DNA of 64,000 nt from a virus. The stretch is taken from positions 1-64,000 of the IMG/VR virus record IMGVR_UViG_3300009103_000001; one strand, written 5' to 3'. Shown one piece after another: positions 7,543 to 64,000 of this stretch. The position numbers and the translations under genes were made by a program. The notes under the pieces were generated by a model that ran no database searches, was not told the origin of the DNA, and saw nothing but the letters and a program-made list of their open reading frames with translations. Within the stretch, counting starts at the first letter, position 1. Every line of letters begins with the position of its first letter.

Positions 7543-8187
7543 GTGAAACATTTAGAACACATATTAAATAGAATAGTAGAAGAAGAAACTTTTAATGATT
7601 TATACCAAGTAAAAAATACTTGGGTAGAGATAGACCAAAGTGATAGGTCAAAATTAGAAAAAAAATTATGGTATTTAATAGATAATGCCTATAAAGTATT
7701 CCCAAAGGGACACCCCCGAATAAAGAGCCCCAGTGATATAACAAATGATTTAGAAATGTCTTTTTGGCGTGCATCTGACCATGATGATGACCCACATGCC
7801 GATATGGTTGTTTTTGGTAGAAAGACACCTGCAGGTATTAAAATTTCTGGAATTGGTCATGATGGGGAAATATTAAGTAGAAAAGAAGTTGTTAGACAAT
7901 GTGCTAATTTATTAAGACAACAGGGTTTTTGGGTTGAAGCTTCTGATAATTTAGCTAGAATATTATTACAATTACATAAAGTACCAACAGTAGAAACACC
8001 AGAGAAAGTTGAAAAAACTTTATATAAGCCAATAAAAAAGTGGTTAGGAACAGTAGAAGGTCAACCTGGATATGGTTGGTATATAAGAGATGTTGAGTAT
8101 ATGTCCAACTCTTATAACTGGAAGGATTCATTACCAGGTCGTAGAAACTATTTAACAAAGATACTTATAGGAAAGCCTAATGTATAA
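7543..8187 (+). CDS. Leader-bearing protein, 214 aa
   Basis: GTG start; the leader is M-K-H-L-E-H-I-L-N-R-I-V-E-E, with predicted prohead-protease cut after I-V-E (residue 13). The body shows a basic/acidic N-terminal half with H-D-D-D-P-H-A-D and a central G-(I/K)-K-I-S-G-I-G-H-D-G segment. The C-terminal third is Trp/Tyr-rich. No family recognised. It is the first of nine consecutive leader genes with overlapping or touching ends, so probably one operon. Confidence 0.65.
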   Translation: MKHLEHILNRIVEEETFNDLYQVKNTWVEIDQSDRSKLEKKLWYLIDNAYKVFPKGHPRIKSPSDITNDLEMSFWRASDHDDDPHADMVVFGRKTPAGIKISGIGHDGEILSRKEVVRQCANLLRQQGFWVEASDNLARILLQLHKVPTVETPEKVEKTLYKPIKKWLGTVEGQPGYGWYIRDVEYMSNSYNWKDSLPGRRNYLTKILIGKPNV

Positions 8188-8960
8188 TGAAAAACTTAAT
8201 TAAAAAAATATTAAAAGAAGAGTTATCAGATGATGAGTTAAATTGGATTCGTGAAGTGGACCCTATAGCAGAGTTTGGTAGATACGTTGATGAAGAAAGT
8301 TCTCGTTATGGGTTTAAGGATGATTCTGATAGAGATTGGTTACGTTTAATAGATAATACTAAAGAATTTTTAGAAGAATTCGTTGATGAAACAAATATTC
8401 TTCAAAATTATGTAGAAAGTTTAAAGAGTTCAACGATGGGGTATCCAACTAGTAAAGCAACGGATACATTAAAGGCAATAGAAGAGATGTTGGGGGATGA
8501 AGATGGTCAATCATCATGGGATTATGTAGAATATTTTCATGATAATCAACATTATTTATGGACGTTTTTAAATAATTTTGGACATTATGCAAATAAACAT
8601 AATTTAACTTTAGTAGAAATGTTAAATTTAAGTCATACATATTTTGACCAAAAAGTTGATGATGATATTAAAAGGTCAGAATCATTAAGAGAATATAATG
8701 AATACGAAAAAAGGTCTACAACTGAAATGACAATGGGTCTATTACTACAGGCTGTGGATTCACTTAAAGATGCGTTAAGATATGTGGAATCAGCATTACA
8801 ATTCGCTTATCAAACAAATAATGAAGATTTAATTAGAGAATTAGAAGACATTAGAATGCATATTTCACATGATGATGGTGACCAAATTGGTTGGGAAGGT
8901 GACCAAACTCATGCAAATATTATTGGTAAGATAAAAGATGTAATAGAAAAATACAGTTAA
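8187..8960 (+). CDS. Leader-bearing protein, 257 aa
   Basis: The start is M-K-N-L-I-K-K-I-L-K-E-E, cut predicted after L-K-E (residue 11), followed by the usual acidic stretch and L-N-W-I-R-E-V-D-P. This is the W-(I/V)-x-(D/E)-(V/x)-x-P linker seen throughout the family. The body is highly acidic and mostly helical, with no recognised domain. Its ATG shares a base with the previous stop (TAATG). Confidence 0.65.
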   Translation: MKNLIKKILKEELSDDELNWIREVDPIAEFGRYVDEESSRYGFKDDSDRDWLRLIDNTKEFLEEFVDETNILQNYVESLKSSTMGYPTSKATDTLKAIEEMLGDEDGQSSWDYVEYFHDNQHYLWTFLNNFGHYANKHNLTLVEMLNLSHTYFDQKVDDDIKRSESLREYNEYEKRSTTEMTMGLLLQAVDSLKDALRYVESALQFAYQTNNEDLIRELEDIRMHISHDDGDQIGWEGDQTHANIIGKIKDVIEKYS

Positions 8961-9404
8961 GTGAAAGATAGAATTAGAAAAATATTAAGAGAGGAAACCG
9001 AAAAACAACCAACAACTTATTATCTTATTGTTGATAAAAGAACTAATAAAGTAATGGACCCTGGTTTATGGAGAATAGGGTTTGAGAATTCGGGTGGTTC
9101 ATCTTATGGGACTTGGGGTATAGACTTCGGTGACCCAAAGTCAGTTGCTCAATACTCATTCAAAGATATGGATGAGATTGAAGAGGTGGTAGAGGATATT
9201 GAATTAGAAAAAAATGATTTAGAAGAAAGATTTCCATTAGATGATGAAGGTAAAAGAGCTTGGAATATACAAGAAGAGATTGATTATTATACTGAATTAT
9301 TACAACATTTAGAAGTTAGAGGGTTTAAATTAGCGGTAGAACCAATTAAAGTTGAAGACCCTTTTAAAAAATTATTTGGATATTCACCTTATGATGAAGA
9401 ATAG
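8961..9404 (+). CDS. Leader-bearing protein, 147 aa
   Basis: The GTG start directly follows the previous stop. The leader M-K-D-R-I-R-K-I-L-R-E-E is cut after L-R-E in the model. A short beta-rich segment containing D-P-G-L-W-R-I-G is followed by a long acidic helix (about 75-120). Unknown family. Confidence 0.6.
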   Translation: MKDRIRKILREETEKQPTTYYLIVDKRTNKVMDPGLWRIGFENSGGSSYGTWGIDFGDPKSVAQYSFKDMDEIEEVVEDIELEKNDLEERFPLDDEGKRAWNIQEEIDYYTELLQHLEVRGFKLAVEPIKVEDPFKKLFGYSPYDEE

Positions 9405-9735
9405 AATTAAAAAAATATTGAAAGAAACTGATTTTGATTGGGTTAAGGATAACCCAATTAGTTCTAAAGAAATATATGTAATTCAATTTGATAAGGGTTG
9501 GGTTTTAGAACCAGACCCTAGAGGGGAATTTGGTTATTATGATATTAGAAATAAAAAGATTGGTGATTGGATTATGCATGTGGGATTTAATTCATTAGAA
9601 GAAGCCGGAGAATATTTAGAGTGGTATATATCAGGGAACCAAGAAGCGTATGAAGATGACATTAAAGACCTTGGCCACCCAAAGATAGTTAAATATAGAT
9701 TAAATTATATGTTAGAATTTATAGAAGAATATTAA
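9394..9735 (+). CDS. Leader-bearing protein, 113 aa
   Basis: I place the start at 9394 (M-K-N-R-I-K-K-I-L-K-E) rather than the upstream in-frame ATG at 9352, because this restores the family leader; ATG 9391 is also possible. The predicted cut after L-K-E (residue 10) is followed by T-D-F-D-W-V-K-D. It overlaps the upstream gene by 11 bases. Body unknown. Confidence 0.6.
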   Translation: MKNRIKKILKETDFDWVKDNPISSKEIYVIQFDKGWVLEPDPRGEFGYYDIRNKKIGDWIMHVGFNSLEEAGEYLEWYISGNQEAYEDDIKDLGHPKIVKYRLNYMLEFIEEY

Positions 9736-10071
9736 ATGAAAGATAGAATTAGAAAAATATTGAGAGAGTCAGATTTTGATTGGACTAAAGAAAATACCAA
9801 CGAAGTGCCAATAAAAGATATTGAGGATTGGGTTGACAAAACTAGGTATGAAGTTGCTGGATGGATTCAAAAAATAGATGAATTTTATAAAAATGCTCCC
9901 CAAGTTGATTGGAGTATTAGGGGTGATATGGAAGAGGAAGATAAAATGTTAGCATTAACGGTTAAAGGTATTGGTGACGAATTAAGAAATATATATAGTA
10001 GTTTTGATTCCATAGATGATGAAATAGATTATCTCAGAAACCCAAAAATGTTTGACGATAATGAACTTTAA
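9736..10071 (+). CDS. Leader-bearing protein, 111 aa
   Basis: The leader M-K-D-R-I-R-K-I-L-R-E-S-D-F-D-W is nearly identical at DNA level to that of the gene at 8961, pointing to copying of the leader between genes. The rest is a short acidic helical protein with no match. The start immediately follows the previous stop. Confidence 0.6.
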   Translation: MKDRIRKILRESDFDWTKENTNEVPIKDIEDWVDKTRYEVAGWIQKIDEFYKNAPQVDWSIRGDMEEEDKMLALTVKGIGDELRNIYSSFDSIDDEIDYLRNPKMFDDNEL

Positions 10072-10082
10072 AAATAAAAAAA

Positions 10083-10577
10083 ATGAAAAGAATTAAATTA
10101 ACAGAACAACAATTTAAAAATATTTTAAACGAAGAAGATAAAAAAAATTATATGTTTTTTCAAAATCTAAATCAAATAAAAGGTCAAGTCGAAGAATTGT
10201 TATCAATGGATGGGTCTAAATTAGATAATATTTTATCGGATGGTCATGATTGGGCTTCGGACCATATTACAACAGCTAAAGATGATGTTGAAGAAGTTTA
10301 TCATTTTTTTAAACATGGTGAAACAATTAGAGAAAATAAGAGTGAACAAAAAGTAATACCGGAAGATTATAATAAAAAAGTATGGGAGTTTAGAATATCT
10401 TATAATAACGCGAAAGACAATCTAGAAGAAATTTTTAATGATATAATGGACACTGATGAGGTAACAGACCCTAATAAAGCTAAAGATATAATAATAGACC
10501 TTCTCCAACAAGTATATGATGAATATGTAGAAGATAACGATGAAGACAATAATTATACCCATAGCTTTGAATGGTAA
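10083..10577 (+). CDS. Leader-bearing protein, 164 aa
   Basis: The leader differs in detail (M-K-R-I-K-L-T-E-Q-Q-F-K-N-I-L-N-E-E) but ends in I-L-N-E, matching L-x-E at residue 17. The mature part is an acidic, predicted all-helical protein, possibly a coiled coil. Unknown function. Confidence 0.55.
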   Translation: MKRIKLTEQQFKNILNEEDKKNYMFFQNLNQIKGQVEELLSMDGSKLDNILSDGHDWASDHITTAKDDVEEVYHFFKHGETIRENKSEQKVIPEDYNKKVWEFRISYNNAKDNLEEIFNDIMDTDEVTDPNKAKDIIIDLLQQVYDEYVEDNDEDNNYTHSFEW

Positions 10578-10589: not shown

Positions 10590-10871
10590 ATGATAAGAAA
10601 AATTATAATAGAAGAATTATTAAAGGAAGATTTTGATTTAATGAAAAATAGTGATATAAAAATATATGTATTAAAGTTTACTGATTATGATGGTAAGTAT
10701 GAAACAGATGTAGATACAAAGTATTTTGGTGATTATGATAAAGCTATTAAATATTTAGTAGATAATGGGTATGAAAAAAAAGATTGGCCAATTTATAACA
10801 ATGAATATGAACAATGGGGTAAAGATTATTCTTTATCAGCTAAATTATATACAAGAACATTAGAACAGTAA
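10590..10871 (+). CDS. Leader-bearing protein, 93 aa
   Basis: The start M-I-R-K-I-I-I-E-E-L-L-K-E-D-F-D-L contains two possible cut points, I-I-E (residue 8) and L-K-E (residue 13). The body is a compact alpha/beta protein with a repeated D-Y-D-G/K theme. No family recognised. Confidence 0.55.
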   Translation: MIRKIIIEELLKEDFDLMKNSDIKIYVLKFTDYDGKYETDVDTKYFGDYDKAIKYLVDNGYEKKDWPIYNNEYEQWGKDYSLSAKLYTRTLEQ

Positions 10872-10879: not shown

Positions 10880-11218
10880 ATGAATTTAAGAAAAATCATA
10901 CGAGAAGAGATTGAACCCCCAACTAATATAGATTGGATTAAGGATAATCAATTTAACTACATGAAAAATATATCTGATGAAGAAATTAAAAAAATTAAAT
11001 TAGATGAACTAAGGTGGTTAGAGGATAGTGTGAATTGTTATGGTTTAAGTGATACTTTATTTACAAAAGTATCCAGATGGAACAAAGTTCCACTTAGATT
11101 ACACAACGGAGAAAAAATATATGTTGACGATGTTTTAATAGTTGATTATAGATGTAAAAAGAAACCCATGTCAGCTAATAATCATAGGGTGGTGGACCCT
11201 AATATATATGATATATAA
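10880..11218 (+). CDS. Leader-bearing protein, 112 aa
   Basis: The leader M-N-L-R-K-I-I-R-E-E-I is followed by N-I-D-W-I-K-D, the canonical linker. The C-terminal half is basic and rich in short beta strands. Its stop overlaps the next start (TAATG). Unknown function. Confidence 0.6.
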   Translation: MNLRKIIREEIEPPTNIDWIKDNQFNYMKNISDEEIKKIKLDELRWLEDSVNCYGLSDTLFTKVSRWNKVPLRLHNGEKIYVDDVLIVDYRCKKKPMSANNHRVVDPNIYDI

Positions 11219-11862
11219 TGAACTTAAAGAAACTTATACGAGAAGAAATAGATGATTTTGATTGGGTTGATGATGCTAATCAGCTAGGGGATTCAGAGTT
11301 TAGAAAAGCTGTGTTTGATTTACAAATAGAAAGAATGAAAAAATCTTTGTACGGACATCAAGAACAGATTGCTTCATGGGTACAAAGTGGTGTTGATGAT
11401 TATGAATCTGATGGCGTTACCAAAATAGGAGAAAGAGATATCAAACAATGGTTAAGAGATGATGCTGGTGAATCAGATATTTTTATTCCTGACTGTTGGG
11501 TCAGTGATAGGTACTTTGAAGAAGAGTATATTGACCCATTGTGGCAAAAATTTTCAGATGACACTTATGATAAATATTTTGCACCGAATGCACCAATGGC
11601 CTATAAAATTGGGAGAGTAAATGAAGCTCATAATCTTTTAGAAGAAGATGACTTTGATTGGGATGAAGTTTTAAGAAATCAACGAAATGAAGAAGATGAT
11701 AAGTATTATAGACTTGAACAAGATTTTAGTGAGTGTATAAGAAACTTACAAGAAAAGTATTCTCAAGGTGAGAATAAGATTGGATATGATTCATATGCGA
11801 CAATAGATGTTATGAAACAAATATTGCCACAATTATTAGATGAAATGTTCCAAGAATTATAA
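11218..11862 (+). CDS. Leader-bearing two-part protein, 214 aa
   Basis: The leader M-N-L-K-K-L-I-R-E-E-I-D-D-F-D-W-V-D-D opens a 130-residue acidic domain. A second junction, L-L-E-E-D-D-F-D-W near residues 138-146, precedes a 70-residue helical tail. In the cleavage model the protein would yield two fragments. No known domain. Confidence 0.6.
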   Translation: MNLKKLIREEIDDFDWVDDANQLGDSEFRKAVFDLQIERMKKSLYGHQEQIASWVQSGVDDYESDGVTKIGERDIKQWLRDDAGESDIFIPDCWVSDRYFEEEYIDPLWQKFSDDTYDKYFAPNAPMAYKIGRVNEAHNLLEEDDFDWDEVLRNQRNEEDDKYYRLEQDFSECIRNLQEKYSQGENKIGYDSYATIDVMKQILPQLLDEMFQEL

Positions 11863-12054: not shown

Positions 12055-15009
12055 TTGAGTAATTTGGTTAATAAAATATTGAGAGAGAATGCTTCAGAAA
12101 TTTATAAAATTTTTGAGGAAGCAGAATTTGACCCTTTTGGTCACATTATTGATAGTGCTAAAGAATCTGATGACCCAGAAGAATTAGATATTAATTTAGA
12201 AGAAGACTGTGTATTAGGTTTTTCAAATGGCAATTCAAAATTAGAGTGGCCTTATATTTCATTGCCTGCAGGGTATACCTGTCCTTTTGCTACTGTATGT
12301 AAAAATTTCCCCGCTAAATGGGAAGGACCGATTAAAGGTGGTAAATTTAAAAGACCATCTTCATGGGAGAAAAATGTTAAACCTGGTCCAGAAGCTAAAT
12401 TTATGTGTTATGCCGCAAGAGCACAAGGACAATATCCGGCAGCAAATGTACAAGTATTTAAAAACCTTAATCTTTTAAAATCAATGAAGACTAAAGAAAA
12501 AATGGCCAACCTTATTATAAAGTCAATGGAGTATCATGGTATAGACAATACAGATATATTTAGGATTCATGAGGCTGGTGATTTTTTTAATCAAGAATAT
12601 TTTGACGCATGGATTGAGGTCGCTAAGAAGATGCCACAGACATTATTTTATGCCTATACAGTGTCATTACCATTTTGGTTATCTAGAAGAAATGAGATAC
12701 CTAAAAACTTTAAATTGATTGCTTCTATGGATGAAAACAATGAACAAACAATATTAGATAATAATTTAAGATATTCAAAGGTGGTAAATGATGAGAATGA
12801 GGCTAAAGAATTGGGGTTACCTATAGATGTTGATGATATGGTAGCGTGGGGAACGGATGATAATTTTGCGTTACCTTTACATGGACCTCAACCAAAAGGT
12901 TCAGAAGCGGCTCAAGCACTTAAAAGAAATAAACAGTCTGGTTTATATGATAAAATAAAACAAGCCAAACAAACCAATCAAGCCAAAAAAAATACATTAA
13001 GAGATAAGTTAAGAAGAGAATTAAGGTCAGAATCTTTTATAAAAGAAAATGATTGGGATTGGGCAGAGTCAATATCAAACCCATTAGAGATTTCAGATGT
13101 CCCACAAAAGATTTGGATGTTGGATTTAACAAGAGAGGAACAGAAAAAAATATATGATTATTTAATTTCTTTAGGGTTTGAAGGAAATACAACTATTAAG
13201 GCTATTACCAAGTCAGATAAATATTTACAAAAATTAGCTGTTTTAATTTTAAATGTTGATAATAGGATTTATGTTGGTGATGAAGAGATTGTTGCTCTAT
13301 CAAGAGGCGAAGAAAAACCAAGACCAAAAGGAAAATTAGGTCATTTGTCTTTTTATAGTGGGGGTAAAGAGAGTCAACGAAAACAACACTTAGAACAATT
13401 AAAGGATTCTTGGGAAAATAGTTATGGTGGTTATTTAGAAATCGACCCAAAAGACTTATTAGATTTAGTCGATAATAACTTAAGTGAAGACATAAAGTAT
13501 ATGGCCGATAATGATGGTTTAGATTGGATAATGGATACTGAACCAAGTGATTTTGGTTATGGGGTTTATGACTCACTTAAAGATGCTGTTATATCACAAT
13601 TAGGTGATTACGATAATATTTCTATTGAAGACACCGTGGTGTTTGAAGGTGATAATTTTACTGTCTATAGGGTAGAGATACAATCAGGTCGTGAAATAGT
13701 AACATTAAAAAATAATAGAACTAATAAAAATTTTCAAATAGTTCTTCACAACCCAATTCCACCAGAGTGGGAAAAAGAGCTTCCACCTTTAGATGAAGAC
13801 CTAGAATATTGGGGTGTTAGGGGTGATAAAATGGGCCCTATAAAGGAAGATGATGAGGTAACATCATTAAAAGGACATAGAGACTATGATAATTGGGTTT
13901 TTATTCATAGAAATTTACATAGACCACCCTATTATTCAATTAAAGCAGGGAGAAGTGGGGGACCAGTCATTGGTTATGATACTGATATATGGTTAGAAGA
14001 TGTTACATTTAAAGTACAAGCAGGCGGAAGAGATAGGACTAGAAAAGAAATGAGAAAAAATGTTCATGCCGGTGTTGTGGGTAAAATTAAAGATTCTGGT
14101 GGTAGTTATGATACAAGTGGTTGGGTGTTGGTGACTTATAATCCATATCAACATGATTCATTCGTTGAATATGAAACTGGCATACCAATACATAACGCTA
14201 AAGAAGCAATATTAAAAAACGAAAAAGAAGTTTGGATAAAACAAGATAAAAATAATATAAATGAAGAATTCAGTTGGTTATTAACTGCTGGTGCCATTTT
14301 TTCACTCTATAAATTTTTTAAGGGAGCTCTTAAATCTAGAAATAATAGTAACCCAGAAGATGAAAAAATAAGAAGAAAATTATGGAATTTAAATATATAT
14401 ATTCGTGATTTTTTAAAAGATGGTGGTAAATTAAAATACGAAGAGAATCCTTGGTTCCACGTTTTTGAAATTGGTGAAGTAACTATAAAAATAAATAAAG
14501 AAAATAATACAATGTTTTGGACTAATTTGGTTCCAGGGAAATTTTTGAAGTATAAGCCAGGTAAAAGAACAGAATTTACTGACATTGGTTGGGATGAACA
14601 CGAATTTACAGAATCAATACAAATGTCCCAAGAAGAAATTGATGAATTAGTTAGTGCAATAAAAGAAGACTTAAAAGAAGATTTAAAAGAAAATAAAAGT
14701 GACTTTGATTGGGTGGATGATAGACCACAACCATCTACTGGTGAGATAGAATTAAAAGTATATTTAAAACCACATTGGTATGAGGGTAGGAATGAATATA
14801 TGTTATTAGAATGGATGATATCTTTTGAAAATATGGAACAATTTTTATCAGATGTGAAAGATTATGTGATTGAAGCTGTTGAAGGATATGATATACCATT
14901 AATGAATATAGGTATAAATGGTTGGGGAGCATTAAATAGATACCCCTCAGAAACAAAAGAATTAAAAGATGGTATAGCTAAAATAGTAAAAATGGCTAAA
15001 AAGTTATGA
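12055..15009 (+). CDS. Gp88-domain polyprotein with capsid-targeting-type leader, 984 aa
   Basis: The TTG start follows directly after the previous stop. The leader S-N-L-V-N-K-I-L-R-E-N is followed by a second possible site (I-F-E, residue 21). Residues about 45-310 match the mycobacteriophage Gp88 family: an L-P-A-G-x-T-C-P-F-A-x-x-C motif, a later F-M-C-Y-A-A-R-A, and F-R-I-H-E-A-G-D-F-F. The conserved Cys residues suggest a metal site. Further junctions follow at I-K-E (331, then W336), I-N-E (737, then W741) and L-K-E (875 and 879, then F-D-W884-886), separating at least three further unknown domains. The 331 domain resembles the 'L-x-x-(L/M)-G-(F/Y)' module of the 37886, 42996 and 44058 polyproteins. 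Confidence 0.8.
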   Translation: MSNLVNKILRENASEIYKIFEEAEFDPFGHIIDSAKESDDPEELDINLEEDCVLGFSNGNSKLEWPYISLPAGYTCPFATVCKNFPAKWEGPIKGGKFKRPSSWEKNVKPGPEAKFMCYAARAQGQYPAANVQVFKNLNLLKSMKTKEKMANLIIKSMEYHGIDNTDIFRIHEAGDFFNQEYFDAWIEVAKKMPQTLFYAYTVSLPFWLSRRNEIPKNFKLIASMDENNEQTILDNNLRYSKVVNDENEAKELGLPIDVDDMVAWGTDDNFALPLHGPQPKGSEAAQALKRNKQSGLYDKIKQAKQTNQAKKNTLRDKLRRELRSESFIKENDWDWAESISNPLEISDVPQKIWMLDLTREEQKKIYDYLISLGFEGNTTIKAITKSDKYLQKLAVLILNVDNRIYVGDEEIVALSRGEEKPRPKGKLGHLSFYSGGKESQRKQHLEQLKDSWENSYGGYLEIDPKDLLDLVDNNLSEDIKYMADNDGLDWIMDTEPSDFGYGVYDSLKDAVISQLGDYDNISIEDTVVFEGDNFTVYRVEIQSGREIVTLKNNRTNKNFQIVLHNPIPPEWEKELPPLDEDLEYWGVRGDKMGPIKEDDEVTSLKGHRDYDNWVFIHRNLHRPPYYSIKAGRSGGPVIGYDTDIWLEDVTFKVQAGGRDRTRKEMRKNVHAGVVGKIKDSGGSYDTSGWVLVTYNPYQHDSFVEYETGIPIHNAKEAILKNEKEVWIKQDKNNINEEFSWLLTAGAIFSLYKFFKGALKSRNNSNPEDEKIRRKLWNLNIYIRDFLKDGGKLKYEENPWFHVFEIGEVTIKINKENNTMFWTNLVPGKFLKYKPGKRTEFTDIGWDEHEFTESIQMSQEEIDELVSAIKEDLKEDLKENKSDFDWVDDRPQPSTGEIELKVYLKPHWYEGRNEYMLLEWMISFENMEQFLSDVKDYVIEAVEGYDIPLMNIGINGWGALNRYPSETKELKDGIAKIVKMAKKL

Positions 15010-15476
15010 AAAATCTAATTAGAAAAATATTAAAAGAAGCGAGAGAACCCATAAATGGGTATTCTATACCTAATAAGTGGATTGACGGCAATAAGTTACA
15101 AACTTTTGAATCTAAAGGTATTAAATATCGTGTAATATATCCTTGGGACAATGAAAGAAATGGTAGAATAGTTATGCAAGTAATACCTTATGATGGTAAA
15201 GATATAGCTATTTATGATGAATATAAGAAGGTATCAAATAATCCTTATGCTCAAGAAAAATATTATGAAGATGGTACAATATATGAATGGACCAAAGAAA
15301 GTGGTGAAAAATTATTCAATCAATTAAATTCTTTTGTTGGTTCTAACCATGATTGGTATGTACATAAATTTGAAGAAGAATTTGGGTTAATTATTTATAT
15401 AGGTATGAATATTTTTGAACTGGTTGAAGATTTTTTACATATAGCTGATGATGGAGACCCATTTAATAAATTATAG
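15006..15476 (+). CDS. Leader-bearing protein, 156 aa
   Basis: ATGA overlap with the polyprotein. The leader M-K-N-L-I-R-K-I-L-K-E-A is cut after L-K-E in the model. The body is alpha/beta with Y-R-V-I-Y-P-W-D and an acidic C-terminus; unknown family. It is the last gene of the run that began at 7543. Confidence 0.6.
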   Translation: MKNLIRKILKEAREPINGYSIPNKWIDGNKLQTFESKGIKYRVIYPWDNERNGRIVMQVIPYDGKDIAIYDEYKKVSNNPYAQEKYYEDGTIYEWTKESGEKLFNQLNSFVGSNHDWYVHKFEEEFGLIIYIGMNIFELVEDFLHIADDGDPFNKL

Positions 15477-19553: not shown

Positions 19554-21026
19554 ATGGGTAATGTTAAAAAAATAATCAAAAAACTTTTAGTAGAAGTGGC
19601 AGGAATATCTTTCGAGGTTAGAAAATGGTCTAACATAATAGGTAATTATGTAGATAATGTATATGCAGAAGAAAAAAAGAAATTAGAAAAAGAAAGTAAT
19701 GATAAACCACAACAATCAAAAAGTTGGGGTAGTACAACACCTTCGTATAATGATTTTGATTATGACGCATCATTAGGCTTCACACATTTTCAACATGATA
19801 AAGATGCTGATGTTCACGAATATGATAGAATAGTAGATGAAGCTTATCTTTATGCTGATGAATTACAGGTTACACCAGACGCTAGACATGAATGTCCTAA
19901 CATAGATAAGGCTATATCTGGTATTTTATTAAAAATAACTTTAGATGGGGTGGGTGGTATAGATGTAGAATCAGCTCAAGGGTCTAAATTAGATGATTCT
20001 TTTATTGATTGTGTTATTGAATTAGTAGAAGACCATATGGTTTCTGGACAAGATTTTTATGACATGAGTTATAATACTTTACACGCAATGAGGGAAGATG
20101 AGGAAGATTTTGGTTGGACATTCCCTAAATATGATAGTAAAAATAAAAAATGGTGGGAAATAGATAGAAGTAGTTATGGTGGTTATGGTGGTTACAGTGG
20201 TTACAAACGTTTAATTCCAGATATTAAAAAAATAGAGATAAATGGTAAAGATTATCCTGAAGCTTATAAAGATTTTAGTGTTGATAAGTGGGTTATAGAA
20301 GATTCTTATAGAACTGAATATGACCATTGGAAGTCTGGTTATAATGATGAGGGTGAATATATTGTATATTTAAATATGAGTATTGGGCCTAATTTTGGTG
20401 GCTCAGCCTTAACACACGAAATTAAACATGCTTATGATGATTGGAATAGGATGAGACATGGTGGTAAACCTATCAGAGATTCTTGGGAAATCCAAAACAT
20501 ATATACAAAGGATTTTGAAAAATTAGTTTTAGGTGCTGGTCGTGATTTAAATCAAGCATTAACTTCAATTATAAGATATTATTATTTGGGTTCAAATTTA
20601 GAAACGCCAGCGTATCTTGAGAATGAATATGATAATGTATCATTTATGGGAAATTATCGTGAAACAGCTAAAAAATTAATGAATTTTAAAGCTAAAAACT
20701 ATATGAAAGAAAATGGTGAACCAGCTAAAGGTTTACAAGAATCTTGGGAAAAGTTAATAAAAGAATTTGATATACCACTTTTTAGAAAATTTAAAAATGT
20801 TATTAATTTTTTAGAATATACAGAAAAATATTTTAATAAAAGAGGTAGAAATATATTAAAACGTATCGATAAGATGAGGTATGTTCACGATAAACCAGAA
20901 CCTAAACCAGTAGTTGGTAAATGGAAAAGTAAGAGTTGGGATGATTATAAAAAAGAAATAGAGAATAATCGAAAAGATAATAATCGAAAAGATAATAATC
21001 AAAACCAATTAAAATTACCATTTTAA
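19554..21026 (+). CDS. Putative zinc metallopeptidase with capsid-targeting-type leader, 490 aa
   Basis: The leader M-G-N-V-K-K-I-I-K-K-L-L-V-E ends in L-V-E (residue 14), a possible prohead-protease site. The central domain contains A-L-T-H-E-I-K-H-A-Y-D-D, with the HExxH zinc-binding motif at residues 288-292, and further Glu/Asp downstream that could supply the third ligand. A Gly/Tyr-rich stretch (about 205-218) precedes it, and the tail has repeated R-K-D-N-N units. If packaged, it would be a virion protease delivered to the host. The third ligand and target are unknown. Confidence 0.65.
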   Translation: MGNVKKIIKKLLVEVAGISFEVRKWSNIIGNYVDNVYAEEKKKLEKESNDKPQQSKSWGSTTPSYNDFDYDASLGFTHFQHDKDADVHEYDRIVDEAYLYADELQVTPDARHECPNIDKAISGILLKITLDGVGGIDVESAQGSKLDDSFIDCVIELVEDHMVSGQDFYDMSYNTLHAMREDEEDFGWTFPKYDSKNKKWWEIDRSSYGGYGGYSGYKRLIPDIKKIEINGKDYPEAYKDFSVDKWVIEDSYRTEYDHWKSGYNDEGEYIVYLNMSIGPNFGGSALTHEIKHAYDDWNRMRHGGKPIRDSWEIQNIYTKDFEKLVLGAGRDLNQALTSIIRYYYLGSNLETPAYLENEYDNVSFMGNYRETAKKLMNFKAKNYMKENGEPAKGLQESWEKLIKEFDIPLFRKFKNVINFLEYTEKYFNKRGRNILKRIDKMRYVHDKPEPKPVVGKWKSKSWDDYKKEIENNRKDNNRKDNNQNQLKLPF

Positions 21027-24799: not shown

Positions 24800-25522
24800 A
24801 TGGGTTTAGATAAAAACATAAAAATGATTACTAGAAATATTTTGTTAGAAGAGTTTGACGATGTATCTAAAAGTGTACGTAAAGAACTTTTATCTAGAAT
24901 GGAGAAAGATAAGGAAGAAGAATATTATGTTTTTGACGATGATGAGGTAAAAACAGACCCAACTAAAGGTGTTGTAGCACCATCTAGAAAAGTTATAGAC
25001 AATGTATGTAGAAGAGCTAAAATATGTGATGAACAAGGTCCGATAACATTTGGACAACTAGAACTTTTAATTAAAGCAGCACAAAAAAGAAAGTTTGGTA
25101 TAAACATGGGTGAAGGTGTGTATAAATCATTTATAAGATTATTACCATGGTTTATACCACAAATTGCTATAGCAGCATTTTTAGGTAGTGGATTAAGAGC
25201 AACAAATAAAGTGGTTAAACCAGCTTTAGAGACAACAAAAGGTTATAAGAGATGGTGGGGTAAAGTTGTTACAAATGTAATGGATTTAGTTGAAGGTGAG
25301 TTACCAATTAATGACCCATTTAATAAAATATTTTTTATAAGTGATGGTATGTTAGAATTGTTGAATGAAAAATCTAAAATTAAATTTGCTAGATATATTG
25401 CTGAAGTTGCAGCATCTAAACCAAAAAATGAAGTTGTACCAGACTATTTTGTTGAAAATGAACTTAGAAGTTGGTTAAATAAAAAATATTTACTAAATCC
25501 ACCATTAAAACCACAAAAATGA
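24800..25522 (+). CDS. Leader-bearing protein, 240 aa
   Basis: The leader M-G-L-D-K-N-I-K-M-I-T-R-N-I-L-L-E-E-F-D-D ends in L-L-E (residue 17). The mature protein has a basic N-terminal half, a hydrophobic segment (L-P-W-F-I-P-Q-I-A-I-A-A-F-L-G) near residue 115-130 that could insert in a membrane, and a helical C-terminus. AATATTTAT upstream at 24787 resembles the window's promoter word. Family unknown. Confidence 0.6.
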   Translation: MGLDKNIKMITRNILLEEFDDVSKSVRKELLSRMEKDKEEEYYVFDDDEVKTDPTKGVVAPSRKVIDNVCRRAKICDEQGPITFGQLELLIKAAQKRKFGINMGEGVYKSFIRLLPWFIPQIAIAAFLGSGLRATNKVVKPALETTKGYKRWWGKVVTNVMDLVEGELPINDPFNKIFFISDGMLELLNEKSKIKFARYIAEVAASKPKNEVVPDYFVENELRSWLNKKYLLNPPLKPQK

Positions 25523-25779
25523 TTCGTAAAATAATAAAAGAAGAACTATTAAAAGAGTTAGATATGAGTATTGAAAGAGGTTTATTATCATATTTAATGA
25601 TAAATTATGAAACTATGGATAATAGTTTTACAAAGAGACATGGTGATGGTGAAGAATGGTTCACAAAAGAAGAAATGATAAAACACATACAAACAAAGTT
25701 TAAAGTTAATAAAGATATGGCAACAAACATTATAGAAGCTTATTTAGAATCTGAAAATAATAAGAATTTTGGTGTTTAA
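25519..25779 (+). CDS. Leader-bearing protein, 86 aa
   Basis: ATGA overlap with the preceding leader gene. The leader M-I-R-K-I-I-K-E-E-L-L-K-E-L offers I-K-E (residue 8) and L-K-E (residue 13). The body is a small helical domain with T-K-R-H-G-D-G-E-E-W-F, resembling a short DNA-binding winged helix only loosely. Confidence 0.55.
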   Translation: MIRKIIKEELLKELDMSIERGLLSYLMINYETMDNSFTKRHGDGEEWFTKEEMIKHIQTKFKVNKDMATNIIEAYLESENNKNFGV

Positions 25780-42988: not shown

Positions 42989-43019
42989 AAACAAGATGTC
43001 AAAGAACTTAAGAAATATA
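42976..43019 (+). repeat. 44-bp direct repeat, copy 1
   Basis: Identical, base for base, to 49178-49221. In both places it spans the end of a VGKCF-module gene and the first codons of the following leader gene (M-S-K-N-L-R-N-I). It marks a recent duplication or recombination point. Confidence 0.8.
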
Positions 43020-47038: not shown

Positions 47039-47359
47039 ATGAAACTAAAAAGAATAATAAAAGAATCCATATTAGATAACTGGTTTAGAAAGAATACACT
47101 TAAAACCCTTATAAACAGAAGTGCTTATTCTTATAATATGCATGATGTTATAATTAAAAAAGGTGATGATATAATTATATGGTTAAAACCATTTCCCAAA
47201 AGCAGTTATAGTGAAGAAGACCAACAATATGTATTAAACACAGAAAATGAAACTTTATCAGTATATGGAAGAGGATTAAATAATGAACCTGATTCAATAT
47301 ATAATTTATCAGAAAAAGAATACCATGATATATTCAATAAAATATATCATTTAATATGA
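47039..47359 (+). CDS. Leader-bearing protein, 106 aa
   Basis: ATG 47039 gives M-K-L-K-R-I-I-K-E-S, matching the family; ATG 47033 adds two residues. Cut predicted after I-K-E (9). The body is a small alpha/beta domain with I-I-K-K-G-D-D-I-I-I-W. No W-I-K-D linker. ATGA overlap with the next gene. Confidence 0.6.
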   Translation: MKLKRIIKESILDNWFRKNTLKTLINRSAYSYNMHDVIIKKGDDIIIWLKPFPKSSYSEEDQQYVLNTENETLSVYGRGLNNEPDSIYNLSEKEYHDIFNKIYHLI

Positions 47360-47805
47360 ATATAAGAAGAATCATAAGGGAAGAAATGGATAACCATATA
47401 ACCAAAGTTATATTAGATACCATTAATGAATATGATATGGACCCTTATGATATTAATAATGATTTATGTGAAGATTTCACAATGGATGTAATTAATAAAA
47501 TGGGAGGATATAACGATAATTTATATGAATTATCTGATGATATGATTTCTAATTTTAGAGACCCAAAATATGCGTTAGATTACTGGGATGGAGAATTAAT
47601 AGAAACACCTTATGGCGTATGGAGCAAAAATGGGTTAGATAGATATGGATACCCTCCCATTCCTTTAAAAGATATTAAAGAAGAATTTAATCATGTATGG
47701 ATATATTACAATGGAAAACATTATGATGCAGAAGAACCTTATGGAGTTAATAACTGGACCGAATTGCCAATGATTAAAAGACAATTAAACTTATATAATA
47801 TATGA
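47356..47805 (+). CDS. Tagged Cys/His peptidase-like protein, 149 aa
   Basis: The leader M-N-I-R-R-I-I-R-E-E is joined directly to M-D-N-H-I-T-K-V-I-L-D-T-I-N. From there it aligns with the untagged gene at 56979. Cys (N-D-L-C-E-D-F), His (F-N-H-V-W-I) and Asp (H-Y-D-A-E) are in the order of papain/transglutaminase-like folds, a pattern seen in other phage proteins. An enzyme role is therefore plausible but not proven. An extra 40 residues lie between Cys and His compared with its untagged relative. Confidence 0.65.
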   Translation: MNIRRIIREEMDNHITKVILDTINEYDMDPYDINNDLCEDFTMDVINKMGGYNDNLYELSDDMISNFRDPKYALDYWDGELIETPYGVWSKNGLDRYGYPPIPLKDIKEEFNHVWIYYNGKHYDAEEPYGVNNWTELPMIKRQLNLYNI

Positions 47806-48806
47806 AATCAACAATAAGAAGAATCATAAGGGAAGAAATGGATGGTCTGGAATGGATTAAAAATGTTCAATCCAATCAGGACATTGCACAAGAGATTGCT
47901 GATGAAACAGAGGTAGATGATAATAAAAGAAAAATATATTTTCCCTTTTCCACCCCTTTCCCTCACTCTCTTTCTTTTTCTCTTCCTTTCTTTTCTTCAC
48001 ATTGTAAAAAAGTATATGGATTAAATGATGATGATATAAAAGATATATGGAAAAGATATAAGAAGATGGTTATGGATAAAATAAATGACCATAATAATCT
48101 TAATGAGAATGATGAATTAAAATGGATAAAAGATGTTCAATCCAATCAGGACATTGCACAGAAAATTGCTGATGAAACAATTATTGACTATGACTATAAA
48201 ATATATGCACCCTCCTTACCCAAATACCCTTTTCCACCTTTCCCACCAAATAAACCAATACGTTCCTTTCATGCTTATTGTGAAGAACAATATGGATTAA
48301 ATGATGATGATATAAAAGATGTATGGAATAGATATAAGAAACTTATTACAGATAAAATTAATGACTATAGGGAAAATTTATTCTCCACTAATGCTTTTAA
48401 TGAATCACCCAATATTAATGAATCCAATGACCTACAATGGATTAAGGATATTAGGTCAATTAAAATAGATGATTGTTTAAAGGTTAGTGGAAACTACACC
48501 TTTTCAAAGGATGATGAAGGAGAAATAACACATTGGCTACATCGTCCATGGACATATATTGTAAAAGATATTAAAAATAACAATTTAGGGGATTATTTAC
48601 TTTTAGAAATTATTTATACTGATTTACCAACTAACCGGAGAAGTACATATTTAATTACAAAATCATTAAAAGAAGTTATAGATGCTATAGAAAGAGGTTA
48701 TTTAAAATTTTGTGATAACCCTAAAAAACGAGATGAGTTTCAAGATGAAATAAATAGTGATTTATATCCTGGTAATATGGGAGATGAAATGTCTGCACCT
48801 AGATAA
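47802..48806 (+). CDS. Three-module polyprotein with capsid-targeting-type leader, 334 aa
   Basis: The leader is M-K-S-T-I-R-R-I-I-R-E-E. Junctions after I-R-E 11, L-N-E 102 and I-N-E 207. Modules 1 and 2 are tandem copies (N-V-Q-S-N-Q-D-I-A-Q ... Y-G-L-N-D-D-D-I-K-D) with a variable Pro/Phe/Ser-rich insert. Module 3 matches the second module of the 38925 protein (I-D-D-C-L-K...T-K-S-L-K-E-V-I-D-A-I-E-R-G-Y). The DNA of modules 1 and 2 repeats 'ttcaatccaatcaggacatt' exactly, so the duplication is recent. Confidence 0.7.
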   Translation: MKSTIRRIIREEMDGLEWIKNVQSNQDIAQEIADETEVDDNKRKIYFPFSTPFPHSLSFSLPFFSSHCKKVYGLNDDDIKDIWKRYKKMVMDKINDHNNLNENDELKWIKDVQSNQDIAQKIADETIIDYDYKIYAPSLPKYPFPPFPPNKPIRSFHAYCEEQYGLNDDDIKDVWNRYKKLITDKINDYRENLFSTNAFNESPNINESNDLQWIKDIRSIKIDDCLKVSGNYTFSKDDEGEITHWLHRPWTYIVKDIKNNNLGDYLLLEIIYTDLPTNRRSTYLITKSLKEVIDAIERGYLKFCDNPKKRDEFQDEINSDLYPGNMGDEMSAPR

Positions 48807-48815: not shown

Positions 48816-49190
48816 ATGAATATAAGAAGAATCATAAGGGAAGAAATAAATGACTTTGATTGGGCTGAAAATCATATAGAGGTTGGGAAATGTTTCAAAA
48901 AACTTTCCAGCAACTACAGAAAAGAAGGGGGTTGGTTAATCGATGAACCTAATGAAAACTATACAGTTAAAATAATTGATATAAAACAAGGTAAAGAACT
49001 TCACAATAAAGGCAAATGGATAGATATCCCTAAAGGTTCATTTGATGAAAGAGCAGTTATAATAAAGTTCGCCAGACCTGAGATGAAGAGAACTGGATAT
49101 ACAAATTGGACAGGTGATATTGAGTTATATTACTCTAATGTTCAAGAATGGCTTAATGATGGGTGGTTAGTGCCTACAGAATGTGAATAA
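48816..49190 (+). CDS. Leader-bearing VGKCF-module protein, 124 aa
   Basis: Leader M-N-I-R-R-I-I-R-E-E-I-N-D-F-D-W-A-E, then one VGKCF module with I-D-I-K-Q-G-K-E-L and D-I-P-K-G-S-F-D-E-R-A-V, ending V-P-T-E-C-E. It is the stand-alone form of a module found inside the 42173, 42996 and 44058 proteins. Its end lies in the 44-bp repeat. Confidence 0.65.
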   Translation: MNIRRIIREEINDFDWAENHIEVGKCFKKLSSNYRKEGGWLIDEPNENYTVKIIDIKQGKELHNKGKWIDIPKGSFDERAVIIKFARPEMKRTGYTNWTGDIELYYSNVQEWLNDGWLVPTECE

Positions 49191-49221
49191 AAACAAGATG
49201 TCAAAGAACTTAAGAAATATA
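49178..49221 (+). repeat. 44-bp direct repeat, copy 2
   Basis: Identical to 42976-43019; spans the stop of the VGKCF gene and the first codons of the next leader gene. Confidence 0.8.
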
Positions 49222-49770
49222 GTTAAAAGAATACTGAAAGAATCAGAATTAGATTGGTTCTCAGATATGAATATCGATAAGATAAAAGTGGGTGCTAAAT
49301 TTAACGTCAATGGCTCCTTTACAGGAACTTTTATAATTAATGAGATACTTTGGAATGAGAAGTTTCCTATGCATACTGAGGTTAACTATGAAGGTATTGA
49401 TTATAGTGGTTCCAAATTTAAGAATAGTGTTAGAATTAAAGATTTTTTAAGATGGTTAGACAATGGAATAATAGTACCCATAGAAAGAACACTAAAAGAA
49501 GCAGAATTCGATTGGTTCTCAGATATGAATATAGATAAGATAAAAGTTGGTGCTAAATTTAAATCTGTTAAACATTTGGATTTCCAAACAGGGGATGCAG
49601 GAACTTTTATAATTGATGAGATACTTTGGAATGAGAGGTCTCTTATGCATAGTGCAGTTAAGTATAGTGGTGTTGATTATAGAGGTTTCAAGTTTTTAGA
49701 TTGGGTCATAGTTAAAGATTTTTTAAGATGGTTGGATGATGGAACAATAGTACCTATAGAAGATAAATAG
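49198..49770 (+). CDS. Tandem-module leader-bearing protein, 190 aa
   Basis: ATG 49198: M-S-K-N-L-R-N-I-V-K-R-I-L-K-E-S. The chain is two near-identical modules, each opening with L-K-E-(S/A)-E-(L/F)-D-W-F-S-D-M-N-I-D-K and ending (I/V)-P-I-E; the second starts near residue 100. Each would be released by a cut after L-K-E. Module function unknown. Confidence 0.65.
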   Translation: MSKNLRNIVKRILKESELDWFSDMNIDKIKVGAKFNVNGSFTGTFIINEILWNEKFPMHTEVNYEGIDYSGSKFKNSVRIKDFLRWLDNGIIVPIERTLKEAEFDWFSDMNIDKIKVGAKFKSVKHLDFQTGDAGTFIIDEILWNERSLMHSAVKYSGVDYRGFKFLDWVIVKDFLRWLDDGTIVPIEDK

Positions 49771-52036: not shown

Positions 52037-52702
52037 ATGCGTAAATCAATCAAAAAAATATTAAGTGAAAACGAATGGGAATGGGTTAATAAGATAGAAC
52101 CTAAACTAACTAAAGACCTAATCTTATGCTCTAACCATGAAAGGTTTAATCCAGGTTGTATGGAAATACTAAATGTATCGAATAGAATAGTATACACGAA
52201 ATCCTTAGAGACTGGTAACCGTTACGCAGACCCTATAGCAGATGTTATGAGGTGGTTAACTGATGGTGATTATCTACTAATGGATGGAACAGGAGAACTG
52301 GTAATACCATTAAAAGAATCAGATGATATGGACTGGATAAGAGATGTGGACCCAATGGTATCATTCGAAGACATTCATAAGGATAACTACCCACTTAGAA
52401 GAGATAGAACTTTTGACGGCTATGATTTAAAATTTGGTGTGAAGATTAAAAACTTGGATGCTATTATAGAAATGACAATGGATTGTAATGGTGATGAAGG
52501 AGAATGGATTGAGGATATTGCATGGTGTATAGTTGTGAATAGTAGCTACTTAAACCATCAAGATGTATACTGTGTTACCTCTCCAAAATATACATGGGAA
52601 GGACAAAGGGCTTGTTTGGATGTATACTTCTACGATAAAAATAATGTTAACATAGCCGACTACTGGGTATCAGATGATATGATTGAGTTATATTATCTGT
52701 GA
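52037..52702 (+). CDS. Two-module leader-bearing protein, 221 aa
   Basis: The leader M-R-K-S-I-K-K-I-L-S-E-N is followed by E-W-E-W-V-N-K. A second junction, L-K-E-S-D-D-M-D-W-I-R-D-V-D-P near residues 94-109, opens a second module with Y-D-L-K-F-G-V-K-I-K-N-L-D-A. AATATTTAT lies 7 bases upstream. It is isolated between the RNA locus and the 68-bp repeats. Module functions unknown. Confidence 0.65.
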   Translation: MRKSIKKILSENEWEWVNKIEPKLTKDLILCSNHERFNPGCMEILNVSNRIVYTKSLETGNRYADPIADVMRWLTDGDYLLMDGTGELVIPLKESDDMDWIRDVDPMVSFEDIHKDNYPLRRDRTFDGYDLKFGVKIKNLDAIIEMTMDCNGDEGEWIEDIAWCIVVNSSYLNHQDVYCVTSPKYTWEGQRACLDVYFYDKNNVNIADYWVSDDMIELYYL

Positions 52703-57853: not shown

Positions 57854-58144
57854 ATGAATATCAAGAAAATTATAAGGGAAGAAATCGATTTAAATTGGGT
57901 TAAAGATATCAGTCCTGATAATGCCACCATAAAGGATTTGGAAGTGGGAATGAATGTTATACCAAGCTGTAATAGTTTGGGTTTATTTGATATATCATAT
58001 GCTGTAGCTGAAATACATGAACATACTGAGGGAAACTATGATGAGGGTTCTTGTGTGTTATTATATCCCAACACTGAAAACACAGAGTATAATGTATTAT
58101 ATTTATGTGAACACTTAAACTGTAGTTTTAAAATATTAACCTAA
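57854..58144 (+). CDS. Single-module leader-bearing protein, 96 aa
   Basis: The leader M-N-I-K-K-I-I-R-E-E-I-D-L-N-W-V-K-D-I-S-P is followed by one module with I-K-D-L-E-V-G-M-N-V-I-P-S-C, Y-D-E-G-S-C-V and C-E-H-L-N-C-S-F-K-I. It is homologous to the first module of the 750-residue polyprotein at 38925 and represents its unfused form. Confidence 0.65.
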   Translation: MNIKKIIREEIDLNWVKDISPDNATIKDLEVGMNVIPSCNSLGLFDISYAVAEIHEHTEGNYDEGSCVLLYPNTENTEYNVLYLCEHLNCSFKILT

Positions 58145-61410: not shown

Positions 61411-61791
61411 ATGAACATAAAAAAGATAATAAAAGAAGAATTAGAATGGATTAAAAAAATCGAACCAAAATATATGCCAAAAAAAGATGAGTTGATTGAG
61501 GTTAGGTACGAAAATAAAGATTCTTTTTTACAATGGATTGGTTCATTTAAAACACCTTATTTAAGTGGTAAGTTTGGTAAATACATTAAAGGGCGTGTTG
61601 TAGACATATCTGATAATTTCTTCTTATTAGTGGTAAAAGATACAACTGGAAATCATGGAATATATTTCCCAACAATAACCGATAACATTGAATGGACAAA
61701 ACCATATTGGCCAACTAGTGGGGTAGGTGGACCACCTAAAGGTATATATGTTGAAGATATTGGTCTTAGATATGTACCACTATCGTCTTAG
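61411..61791 (+). CDS. Leader-bearing protein, 126 aa
   Basis: The leader M-N-I-K-K-I-I-K-E-E is followed by L-E-W-I-K-K-I-E-P. One beta-rich module with E-L-I-E-V-R-Y-E and G-R-V-V-D-I-S-D-N-F-F. ATGA-type convergence with the leftward gene at its end. Function unknown. Confidence 0.6.
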   Translation: MNIKKIIKEELEWIKKIEPKYMPKKDELIEVRYENKDSFLQWIGSFKTPYLSGKFGKYIKGRVVDISDNFFLLVVKDTTGNHGIYFPTITDNIEWTKPYWPTSGVGGPPKGIYVEDIGLRYVPLSS

Positions 61792-62304: not shown

Positions 62305-62312
62305 ATATAACT

Positions 62313-62861
62313 ATGGATATAAGAAAAATCATAAAAGAGGAAATGGAATCTAAAAATATAGGATATGAAGATATTGTATATGAAGATGATAACCTAATAG
62401 TTATATATCCAAAAACAAGGGAAGCTTCATGTAATTATGGTGAAGACACAAATTGGTGTACAGCAGCTGAAGGTGGACAATCTTTCCATGAATATAATGA
62501 TAAAGGTAACTTATATTATCATATATGGAAATTTAAAATGCCTAATAATAAACAAAACTATCAAAAAATTGCTAGATTCATTGAATATGGTAAAGAATAT
62601 GGTGAACTTGGTGATTTTTTCTTATTTGATGATAGTCAAGTGGATAAGTATGAAATATTATTTAATATTTTAAATGGTAAAAAATTAAAGGAGGGTGGTT
62701 TTGAGTATCCAGCAGAGTTAAAACCATTAAATGATTCTTGGGAAAAAGCTTTTATTGCTGTTGATACACATTATGCAAAAAATGGTTTACACAAAACACC
62801 AACATATACGGAACCCGATATAGAAGATTTATGGGATGACGATTATGAAGAATTTTTCTAG
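62313..62861 (+). CDS. YGxxTxWC-family protein with capsid-targeting-type leader, 182 aa
   Basis: The leader is M-D-I-R-K-I-I-K-E-E. Family core: V-I-Y-P-K-T-R-E-A-S-C-N-Y-G-E-D-T-N-W-C-T-A-A near residues 30-55, then Y-Y-H-I-W-K-F. The C-terminal half is acidic. Two longer relatives lie at the two window ends, so this is a three-member family here, all with leaders. Confidence 0.65.
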   Translation: MDIRKIIKEEMESKNIGYEDIVYEDDNLIVIYPKTREASCNYGEDTNWCTAAEGGQSFHEYNDKGNLYYHIWKFKMPNNKQNYQKIARFIEYGKEYGELGDFFLFDDSQVDKYEILFNILNGKKLKEGGFEYPAELKPLNDSWEKAFIAVDTHYAKNGLHKTPTYTEPDIEDLWDDDYEEFF

Positions 62862-63070: not shown

Positions 63071-63076
63071 AAAAAC

Positions 63077-63337
63077 ATAATCATAAGAGATATAAGACCA
63101 TATACTGATACTAAAGACCTAGAGGTAGGTAAAAGATATATTGCCTATGATATAGGTAATGATGAACTTCATGGTGAACCTTTTATTGTTTTAAAAAAAA
63201 ATGAAAGTATAGATAATATACAAATTCACATCAAATGGCTTAATATGAATAGAGGTACTATCATAACAGAAAAATCTATAGGAAATTGGGAACCAATATT
63301 TAGACCTAGTATGGAGTGGATGTGGTTCTATAGATAA
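63077..63337 (+). pseudogene. Leader-gene-like frame without a normal start codon
   Basis: An 86-codon open frame reading I-I-I-R-D-I-R-P-Y-T-D-T-K-D-L-E-V-G-K-R-Y-stop-free to 63335. The DNA start, ataatcataagagatata, resembles the leader codons of other genes, but no ATG, GTG or TTG precedes the body in frame (stop at 63068). Either an ATA-type start is used, or the gene has lost its start codon and decayed. D-L-E-V-G-(K/M) is shared with the 57854 protein. Confidence 0.45.
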
Positions 63338-63359
63338 TTTAATTCACACAACTTTATTG

Positions 63360-63368
63360 GATATTTAT
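63360..63368 (+). promoter_or_regulatory. GATATTTAT motif
   Basis: Lies 22 bases before ATG 63391; a second ATATTTAT follows at 63379, closer to the start. Confidence 0.45.
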
Positions 63369-63390
63369 TATTAATAATATATTTATTGAT

Positions 63391-64000
63391 ATGGATATTA
63401 AATTATTATTAGAAAGAATTATACTTACTGAAGGTAGGGTTGAGAATGCTAGAAAAAAATATCCTAATATACCAGATAAAATTTTTGATTATTACGTAGA
63501 TAATGACCCATCTGGTAATCAAAAGTACCTTAATTGGGTTTTAAAAACTATAACAGCTGATTGGGGTATTACACAAACATCACATTTTAGACAAAATCAT
63601 TCTGAGTTATTAGATAGTTTAACATTCTTCCATGAAAATAACCAAGCGTTTAATAAAAAAGATATAAATCATTATAAAAATTTAACTATGTTTTTCCAAA
63701 CCATTGCTGAGGTTAGGGAAAAGGTGAGACAAAAAAAGGAAGAAAAAAAGGCTAAAAAACAAAGAAACCTTGTTTATCAAGATAAGGATTGGGTTGTAAT
63801 ATCACCTAAATCACATTTAGCTTCTTGTGTTTATGGTTCTGGTACAAAATGGTGTGTTACAATGAAAGATTATTCACATCATTGGGATAGATATTCTAAA
63901 AACGCAACATTCTTTTTTATAATAGATAAAAATAAAGATGATTCGGATAACCTATATAAAGTCGCTTTTAGAAAAATAGGTAGAAGTGGTAAGGTTGAAT
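63391..64000 (+). CDS. YGxxTxWC-family protein with capsid-targeting-type leader (partial)
   Basis: Cut by the right window edge after about 203 codons. The leader M-D-I-K-L-L-L-E-R-I-I-L-T-E-G ends L-T-E (residue 14), with L-L-E at 8 as an alternative. S-G-N-Q-K-Y-L-N-W-V and C-V-Y-G-S-G-T-K-W-C-V-T-M match the protein at the left edge (1-792). A Lys-rich linker (about 110-128) lies between the two parts. Confidence 0.7.
   Translation, partial: MDIKLLLERIILTEGRVENARKKYPNIPDKIFDYYVDNDPSGNQKYLNWVLKTITADWGITQTSHFRQNHSELLDSLTFFHENNQAFNKKDINHYKNLTMFFQTIAEVREKVRQKKEEKKAKKQRNLVYQDKDWVVISPKSHLASCVYGSGTKWCVTMKDYSHHWDRYSKNATFFFIIDKNKDDSDNLYKVAFRKIGRSGKVE

Follow-up and report, generated by a model that had tools for sequence, protein, structure and literature searches.

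Why do so many otherwise unrelated proteins of one phage begin with the same kind of short peptide? The question is raised by the first 64 kb (64,000 nucleotides, the window) of the 210,157-base IMG/VR record IMGVR_UViG_3300009103_000001, a contig that may be a fragment of a longer genome. An earlier reading based on the letters of the window alone (the sequence-only reading) had listed 32 starts, giving about 30 genes that share an N-terminal leader, and had proposed that the leader directs proteins into the phage head for injection, as in T4. We followed this proposal across the contig and related phages. Our preferred answer, to which we give a probability of roughly 0.8, is that the leader belongs to a T4-type capsid-targeting system that is greatly expanded (about tenfold) and joined with polyproteins that would be diced in the prohead.

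The leader is 8–25 residues long, with forms such as MNIRKIIRE/E and MKNLIRKILKE/E (slashes mark predicted cuts throughout). Using a leave-one-out 8-column score (≥14 bits within the first 45 residues), we found it in 39 of the 273 genes called in the contig, 26 of them in the window; the gene denominators are approximate, as a simple greedy open reading frame (ORF) caller was used. Among N-termini shuffled with their composition kept, 3 of 5460 reached this score, as did 1 of 1021 internal windows. The chance expectation from the shuffled N-termini is about 0.15 genes. A core regular expression matched 37 genes, where 500 shuffles gave a mean of 0.18 and at most 2. About nine further genes with variant leaders bring the set to 48 genes, roughly one gene in six and 13–17% of the contig. 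The pattern extends beyond the window, with leader genes at contig 65.7, 84.5, 89.8, 105–116 and 186–188 kb. All 32 starts in the sequence-only reading proved to be ORFs encoding the peptides it gave. Its consensus, M-x-x-[KR][KR]I[IL][KR]E[ES], was too strict, being exact in 12 of the 32 and present in 17 when spacing was allowed to vary, but the general pattern of two hydrophobic residues, any residue and Glu near the N-terminus, after a basic/hydrophobic stretch, held for 31. Similarly, the tag described after the leader, [DE][FL][DE]W, was exact in only eight, with a looser x-x-W-[IV]-K-D in about 18. The starts at 7543, 10083, 19554, 24800, 63391 and 792(-) are divergent variants. As had been claimed, the leader heads unrelated families (sigma-70, GP88, HExxH and YGxGTKWC); it is not present on DnaK, the ClpB-type ATPase, thymidylate synthase, thioredoxin, terminase or portal. 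The full-length Hsp70 (E=6e-253) and the ClpB/ClpC-type ATPase, both without leader, are encoded at window 21510–23366 and contig 85729–88206.

T4-like head genes are found in the contig: terminase (PF03237), portal gp20 (PF07230, E=5e-74) and capsid gp23 (PF07068, E=5e-71). A gp21-type serine (S77) prohead protease, whose absence from the complete genome would, on its own terms, have refuted the sequence-only reading, is encoded at contig 104209–105018 (PF03420, E=3e-26), and the gene for an acidic scaffold-like protein sits between the protease and capsid genes. In T4, propeptides of 10–19 residues direct internal proteins to the core of the prohead, with gp21 cleaving behind L/I-X-E (PMC9026906). 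The [IL]xE end of the leader matches this published specificity, the ends of T4 sequences (ipIII MKTYQEFIAE/A, gp22 MLKEQLIAE/A, gp24 MAKINELLRE/S and gp23 FGSFLTE/A, with cuts placed according to published sites or the motif) and the predicted site in the phage's own capsid protein. There, STLINE/TTDTAGG lies where mature T4 gp23 starts aligning (weak local score), and all 60 aligned capsid sequences have [IL]xE and then T, S, A or N at this predicted maturation site. Leader genes are located on both sides of the protease, scaffold and major capsid protein genes. Around the protease and capsid genes, seven (contig 105015, 105627, 106011, 107461, 115360, 115739 and 116135) carry a long leader of the MKKIIKLNENDIENLVKKIIKEE type, the second half of which is a short leader. 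A glutamine synthetase-like gene (contig 101330–102460) also lies in the head cluster, between the portal and protease genes.

The long leader form, internal cleavage-type sites and a clade-wide distribution had not been part of the sequence-only reading. Repeated modules, each about 85–190 residues long, make up many of the leader proteins. Among 20 internal modules recognised by the tryptophan-containing tag (W-tag) alone, 18 have [IL]xE no more than 12 residues upstream, against a background of 11–15%, and the remaining two have V-N-E instead; 65604, an N-terminal leader behind a misplaced start, was excluded from this count. The residue before Glu at the internal sites varies (N, D, K, F, S or Y), which favours selection on the motif over duplication alone. 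One motif therefore recurs in the leaders, at the predicted capsid site and at the internal polyprotein sites. Comparison of the contig with a 380-kb relative (G001) revealed stand-alone leader genes that align with internal polyprotein modules. The boundaries in these alignments are [ILM]xE in 11 of 13 cases and V-N-E in two (background 19%), a count that leaves out ten YGxGTKWC-domain alignments. Two polyproteins of the same relative have a complete internal leader, NIIREELDDFDW and INKILKEEFDDFDW. In the contig, an HExxH domain follows LLVE/VAGISFEVRKW in a stand-alone gene and TITE/AAGISFEVRKW inside a polyprotein. Neither the polyprotein at 44058 nor this HExxH protein gave a match among cultured phages.

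We detected the leader in 34 of 467 genes of G001 and 25 of 421 genes of a 318-kb relative (G002), where about one is expected; a distant relative had 3 of 227, T4 had 1 of 214 (about 70% of the genome) and Flavobacterium phage immuto 2 of 219. Among 80 relatives of the protease, nearly all with ≥60% identity have several leader genes nearby, whereas those at about 50% have few or none. Cargo sets differ between relatives. The phage is large and T4-like and probably infects Bacteroidota, the host being suggested by a by-eye likeness to type IX secretion cargo and by capsid protein matches to immuto and Rhodothermus phage RM378. Immuto, with just two leader-like genes, was a poor cultured proxy, megablast of the window against cultured phages returned zero matches, and literature searches of open-licence papers found no such leader set reported for Bacteroidota phages. 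The secreted-looking proteins resembling Bacteroidota type IX secretion/gliding-motility C-terminal-domain proteins are encoded at window 2967–5465 and 31604–34701; window 29662–30501 encodes a low-complexity Tyr/Asn-rich protein with a signal-peptide-like start.

Leader genes also have an upstream motif in common with structural genes. Among first genes, a site matching ATATTTAT (often GATATTTAT) precedes the start by 12–60 bases in 13 of 35 with the leader (P=8e-4) and 12 of 21 structural ones (P=9e-6), compared with 17 of 145 others and 9 of 201 in an opposite-orientation control. In all three related phages, the motif is mostly 12–30 bases before the start codons of structural and leader genes, for example upstream of window 57854, 61411 and 62313 and of the terminase, portal and sheath genes. 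Enrichment upstream of leader genes recurred in G001 (13/21 versus 62/321, P=5e-5) and G002 (11/17 versus 56/296, P=9e-5), where the motif also stands before portal, sheath and protease genes, among others. The T4 late promoter TATAAATA showed no enrichment; ATATTTAT is a candidate late promoter unlike that of T4.

With regard to cargo, the leader is carried by a sigma factor (region 2, E=7e-14; region 4, E=5e-13). A 52% identical relative in IMG/VR keeps the leader, but the sigma factor was not found in seven relatives and so is not universal cargo. A second sigma-70-like protein (window 28305–28907), without leader, is possibly made after infection for late genes. Two proteins have HExxH motifs and no Pfam match. 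An invariant motif of the YGxGTKWC type marks a further family, which is present in several copies per genome and has more than 550 relatives in IMG/VR. Its members mostly start with a short peptide ending [IL]xE/GR or similar; counted strictly, 34 of 56 do so, versus 11.7 in shuffles. A homologue in phage PA5oct, starting MKLFEVFTLYE, is annotated as a structural protein from electrospray ionisation tandem mass spectrometry (ESI-MS/MS) of virions. AlphaFold gave a predicted local distance difference test score (pLDDT) of 39 for the protein at 62313 alone and a mean pLDDT of 81 for a 246-residue family relative with 41 homologues. The predicted fold of the latter matches no solved structure; its only matches are viral proteins of unassigned function, the PA5oct structural protein and, weakly, PcfJ-like proteins. 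The family is also similar to Marseillevirus proteins in predicted fold. The leader genes of the window are listed in Table 1.

Table 1. Leader genes of the window (window coordinates; P1, residue before the predicted cut).
Gene	Strand	Leader and following residues	Leader position	Internal sites (P1 position)	Remarks
7543..8187	+	variant MKHLEHILNRIVE/	7543-7581		GTG start; 214 residues; function not assigned; GATATTTAT just upstream
8187..8960	+	MKNLIKKILKE/	8187-8219		257 residues; function not assigned
8961..9404	+	MKDRIRKILRE/	8961-8993		GTG start
9394..9735	+	MKNRIKKILKE/TDFDWVKD	9394-9426
9736..10071	+	MKDRIRKILRE/SDFDWTKE	9736-9768
10083..10577	+	long-form variant MKRIKLTEQQFKNILNE/	10083-10133
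10590..10871	+	MIRKIIIE/ELLKE	10590-10613
10880..11218	+	MNLRKIIRE/	10880-10906
11218..11862	+	MNLKKLIRE/EIDDFDWVDD	11218-11244
12055..15009	+	MSNLVNKILRE/	12055-12087	DLKE/NKSDFDWVDD (codon ends 14691), before last module	TTG start; polyprotein, 984 residues; GP88 domain, residues 65-283; phage L5 gp82-type domain, residues 613-724, shortly after GPIKE/DDEV
15006..15476	+	MKNLIRKILKE/	15006-15038
19554..21026	+	variant MGNVKKIIKKLLVE/VAGISFEVRKW	19554-19595		HExxH motif (HEIKH); domain recurs after TITE/AAGISFEVRKW in polyprotein at contig 66725-68785
24800..25522	+	variant MGLDKNIKMITRNILLE/	24800-24850
25519..25779	+	MIRKIIKE/ELLKE	25519-25542
37886..38818	-	MNIKRIIRE/	38818-38792	VNE/SNDMKW (38510), INE/SDLDWVKD (38174)	GTG start; polyprotein
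38925..41177	+	MNIKRHIKE/	38925-38951	IDE/S, INE/SESNMDWIKD, leader-like IKKVIRKEINE/SDFEW, IKE/SKGLDW (codons end 39278, 39563, 40136, 40391)	Polyprotein, 750 residues
41168..41485	+	MDLRKIIRE/EVDKLGWIKD	41168-41194
41475..42167	+	MNIRKIIRE/	41475-41501	LYE/SEDPLKWIKD (41855)	GTG start; two modules
42173..42988	+	MDIKRIIKE/	42173-42199	VNE/SDDFGWVDN (42658)	Two modules, second homologous to whole body of 48816-49190
42996..44039	+	MSKNLRNIIRE/	42996-43028	INE/NDGKEW (43364), LNE/SSELEWIKD (43712)	Three-module polyprotein
44058..45806	+	MDIKRIIKE/	44058-44084	IDE/N (44399), INE/S (44687, 45032, 45392)	Five-module polyprotein
47039..47359	+	MKLKRIIKE/SILDNW	47039-47065
47356..47805	+	MNIRRIIRE/	47356-47382
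47802..48806	+	MKSTIRRIIRE/	47802-47834	LNE/N (48107), INE/S (48422)	Three-module polyprotein
48816..49190	+	MNIRRIIRE/EINDFDWAEN	48816-48842		Single module
49198..49770	+	MSKNLRNIVKRILKE/SELDWFSD	49198-49242	LKE/AEFDWFSD (49500)	Tandem duplicated module
52037..52702	+	MRKSIKKILSE/	52037-52069	LKE/SDDMDWIRD (52318)	Two modules
57854..58144	+	MNIKKIIRE/EIDLNWVKD	57854-57880		Promoter-like GATATTTAT just upstream
61411..61791	+	MNIKKIIKE/ELEWIKK	61411-61437		GATATTTAT just upstream
62313..62861	+	MDIRKIIKE/	62313-62339		YGxGTKWC-type family; YGxxTxWC domain
63391..63999	+	variant MDIKLLLERIILTE/GRVENARKKYP	63391-63432		YGxGTKWC-type family; YGxGTKWC domain; continues to contig 64839
1..792	-	variant MDNKHITELILSKVDNLLLE/ARIDNIKKKFP	792-733		YGxGTKWC-type family; YGxGTRWC domain; truncated by contig start

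These features support the head-packaging interpretation of the sequence-only reading and suggest the following scheme, in which we infer the packaging, cleavage, injection and effects of the cargo. Late in infection, at least 40 otherwise unrelated cargo proteins would be made with the leader, which would bind the scaffold core so that the cargo becomes enclosed in the prohead. The gp21-type protease would then cut after [IL]xE and remove the leader, as the identity with the capsid site and the T4 substrates suggests, and would also cut about a dozen polyproteins at internal [IL]xE sites into modules mostly starting with an S/N-D-x-x-x-W-[IV]-K-D-like tag. By the T4 precedent, mature cargo would remain with the DNA and pass into the next host, where a delivered sigma factor could be active ahead of all phage gene expression.

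Several points weigh against this scheme. Pfam and PHROGs assigned no function to most of the cargo. The modules are paralogous, so the internal sites are not independent, and [IL]xE is short and common enough that single internal sites may be chance. At a mean net charge of -0.073 per residue the cargo is acidic, while T4 internal proteins are basic (PMC9026906), though charge is not a defining feature of a T4-type system. Lastly, the PA5oct homologue differs in N-terminal sequence and might be structural rather than injected. In a different reading, the leader targets and matures proteins that serve just in the head, as scaffold, stabilisers or internal body, and not as injected effectors. 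The clustering of leader genes around the scaffold and major capsid protein genes fits that role, as does the MAENRKSIIDE/A start of the scaffold-like protein itself, and many head proteins of SPN3US have no known host role (PMC10052503). However, a sigma factor with good matches to regions 2 and 4 and an HExxH protein have no obvious task in a head, and cargo sets vary between relatives as host-facing accessory proteins do; we consider a head-only function unlikely.

A short, basic and hydrophobic leader could also form an amphipathic helix and might anchor proteins, uncleaved, to the membrane or another infection-stage compartment. Such an anchor would leave unexplained the fixed Glu, the match to the capsid protein site, the [IL]xE sites within polyproteins and the upstream motif held in common with structural genes, and seems very improbable. 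It is harder still to credit that the common N-termini go back to a DNA-level repeat, whether a module for recombination or for regulation, or simply to recent duplication of genes. Duplication is clear among the W-tag modules, which are paralogues and in part tandem copies, but leader codon likeness is 0.63, versus 0.60 predicted from genome codon usage, pointing to conservation of, or selection on, the peptide rather than the DNA and rejecting the DNA-level repeat, and duplication does not account for leaders on unrelated families.

For the T4-type capsid-targeting system, each testable feature readable from sequence was found except late expression with the head genes, for which the promoter evidence is indirect. 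As for T4 IPI–IPIII and Alt (PMC9026906, PMC12373910), a short N-terminal [IL]xE propeptide is carried by unrelated cargo that varies between relatives, alongside an S77 protease. Unlike T4, which has a handful of such genes, this phage has about 40–48, together with polyproteins, a long leader form, acidic cargo and a sigma factor; the scale, the polyproteins and the sigma factor set it apart from an ordinary T4-type member. The leader is also nearer to the gp24 propeptide than to that of the internal protein ipIII, with gp24 having almost the peptide MKNLIRKILRE/S in length, residue classes and end; in T4 that propeptide is on one capsid vertex protein, here on many unrelated proteins. The phages phiKZ, SPN3US and 201phi2-1 likewise have a large head protein load, some of it cut after Glu by a gp21 relative (PMC5694885, PMC10052503). 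For SPN3US, nine known substrates, an AxE motif and propeptides mostly >100 residues long are described (PMC10052503), in contrast to the [IL]xE and 8–25-residue leaders here, and neither a common short leader nor polyproteins are reported in that literature. Polyvalent proteins of phages and conjugative elements are multi-domain and predicted to be packaged and injected, but their processing is proposed to occur via built-in peptidase domains (PMC5512222), whereas the boundaries here have prohead-protease-type sites. That paper names neither of the two domains matched here, GP88 and L5 gp82.

Injected phage proteins usually are found singly, from cultured virions. With a tag that can be read in sequence, DNA alone would suffice to list the proteins that uncultured large phages may inject, and attention is drawn to proteins for early anti-defence and host takeover. 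Without an exhaustive search, we know of no other tailed phage with effector polyproteins cut by the capsid protease; if true, such cutting would allow many effectors to be packed under one targeting signal. If true, packaging a sigma factor would offer a simple substitute for the RNA polymerases that phiKZ and N4 carry in their virions. Taken at its fullest, to which we give even odds, the finding would describe a clade of large T4-like phages in which tens of distinct polypeptides are delivered from the head. These phages would rely on a portable 8–25-residue tag and on multi-effector polyproteins that the prohead protease dices within the capsid. Many of the products would have a similar W-tag at the mature N-terminus, and the cargo would include a sigma factor that could seize host RNA polymerase ahead of phage transcription.

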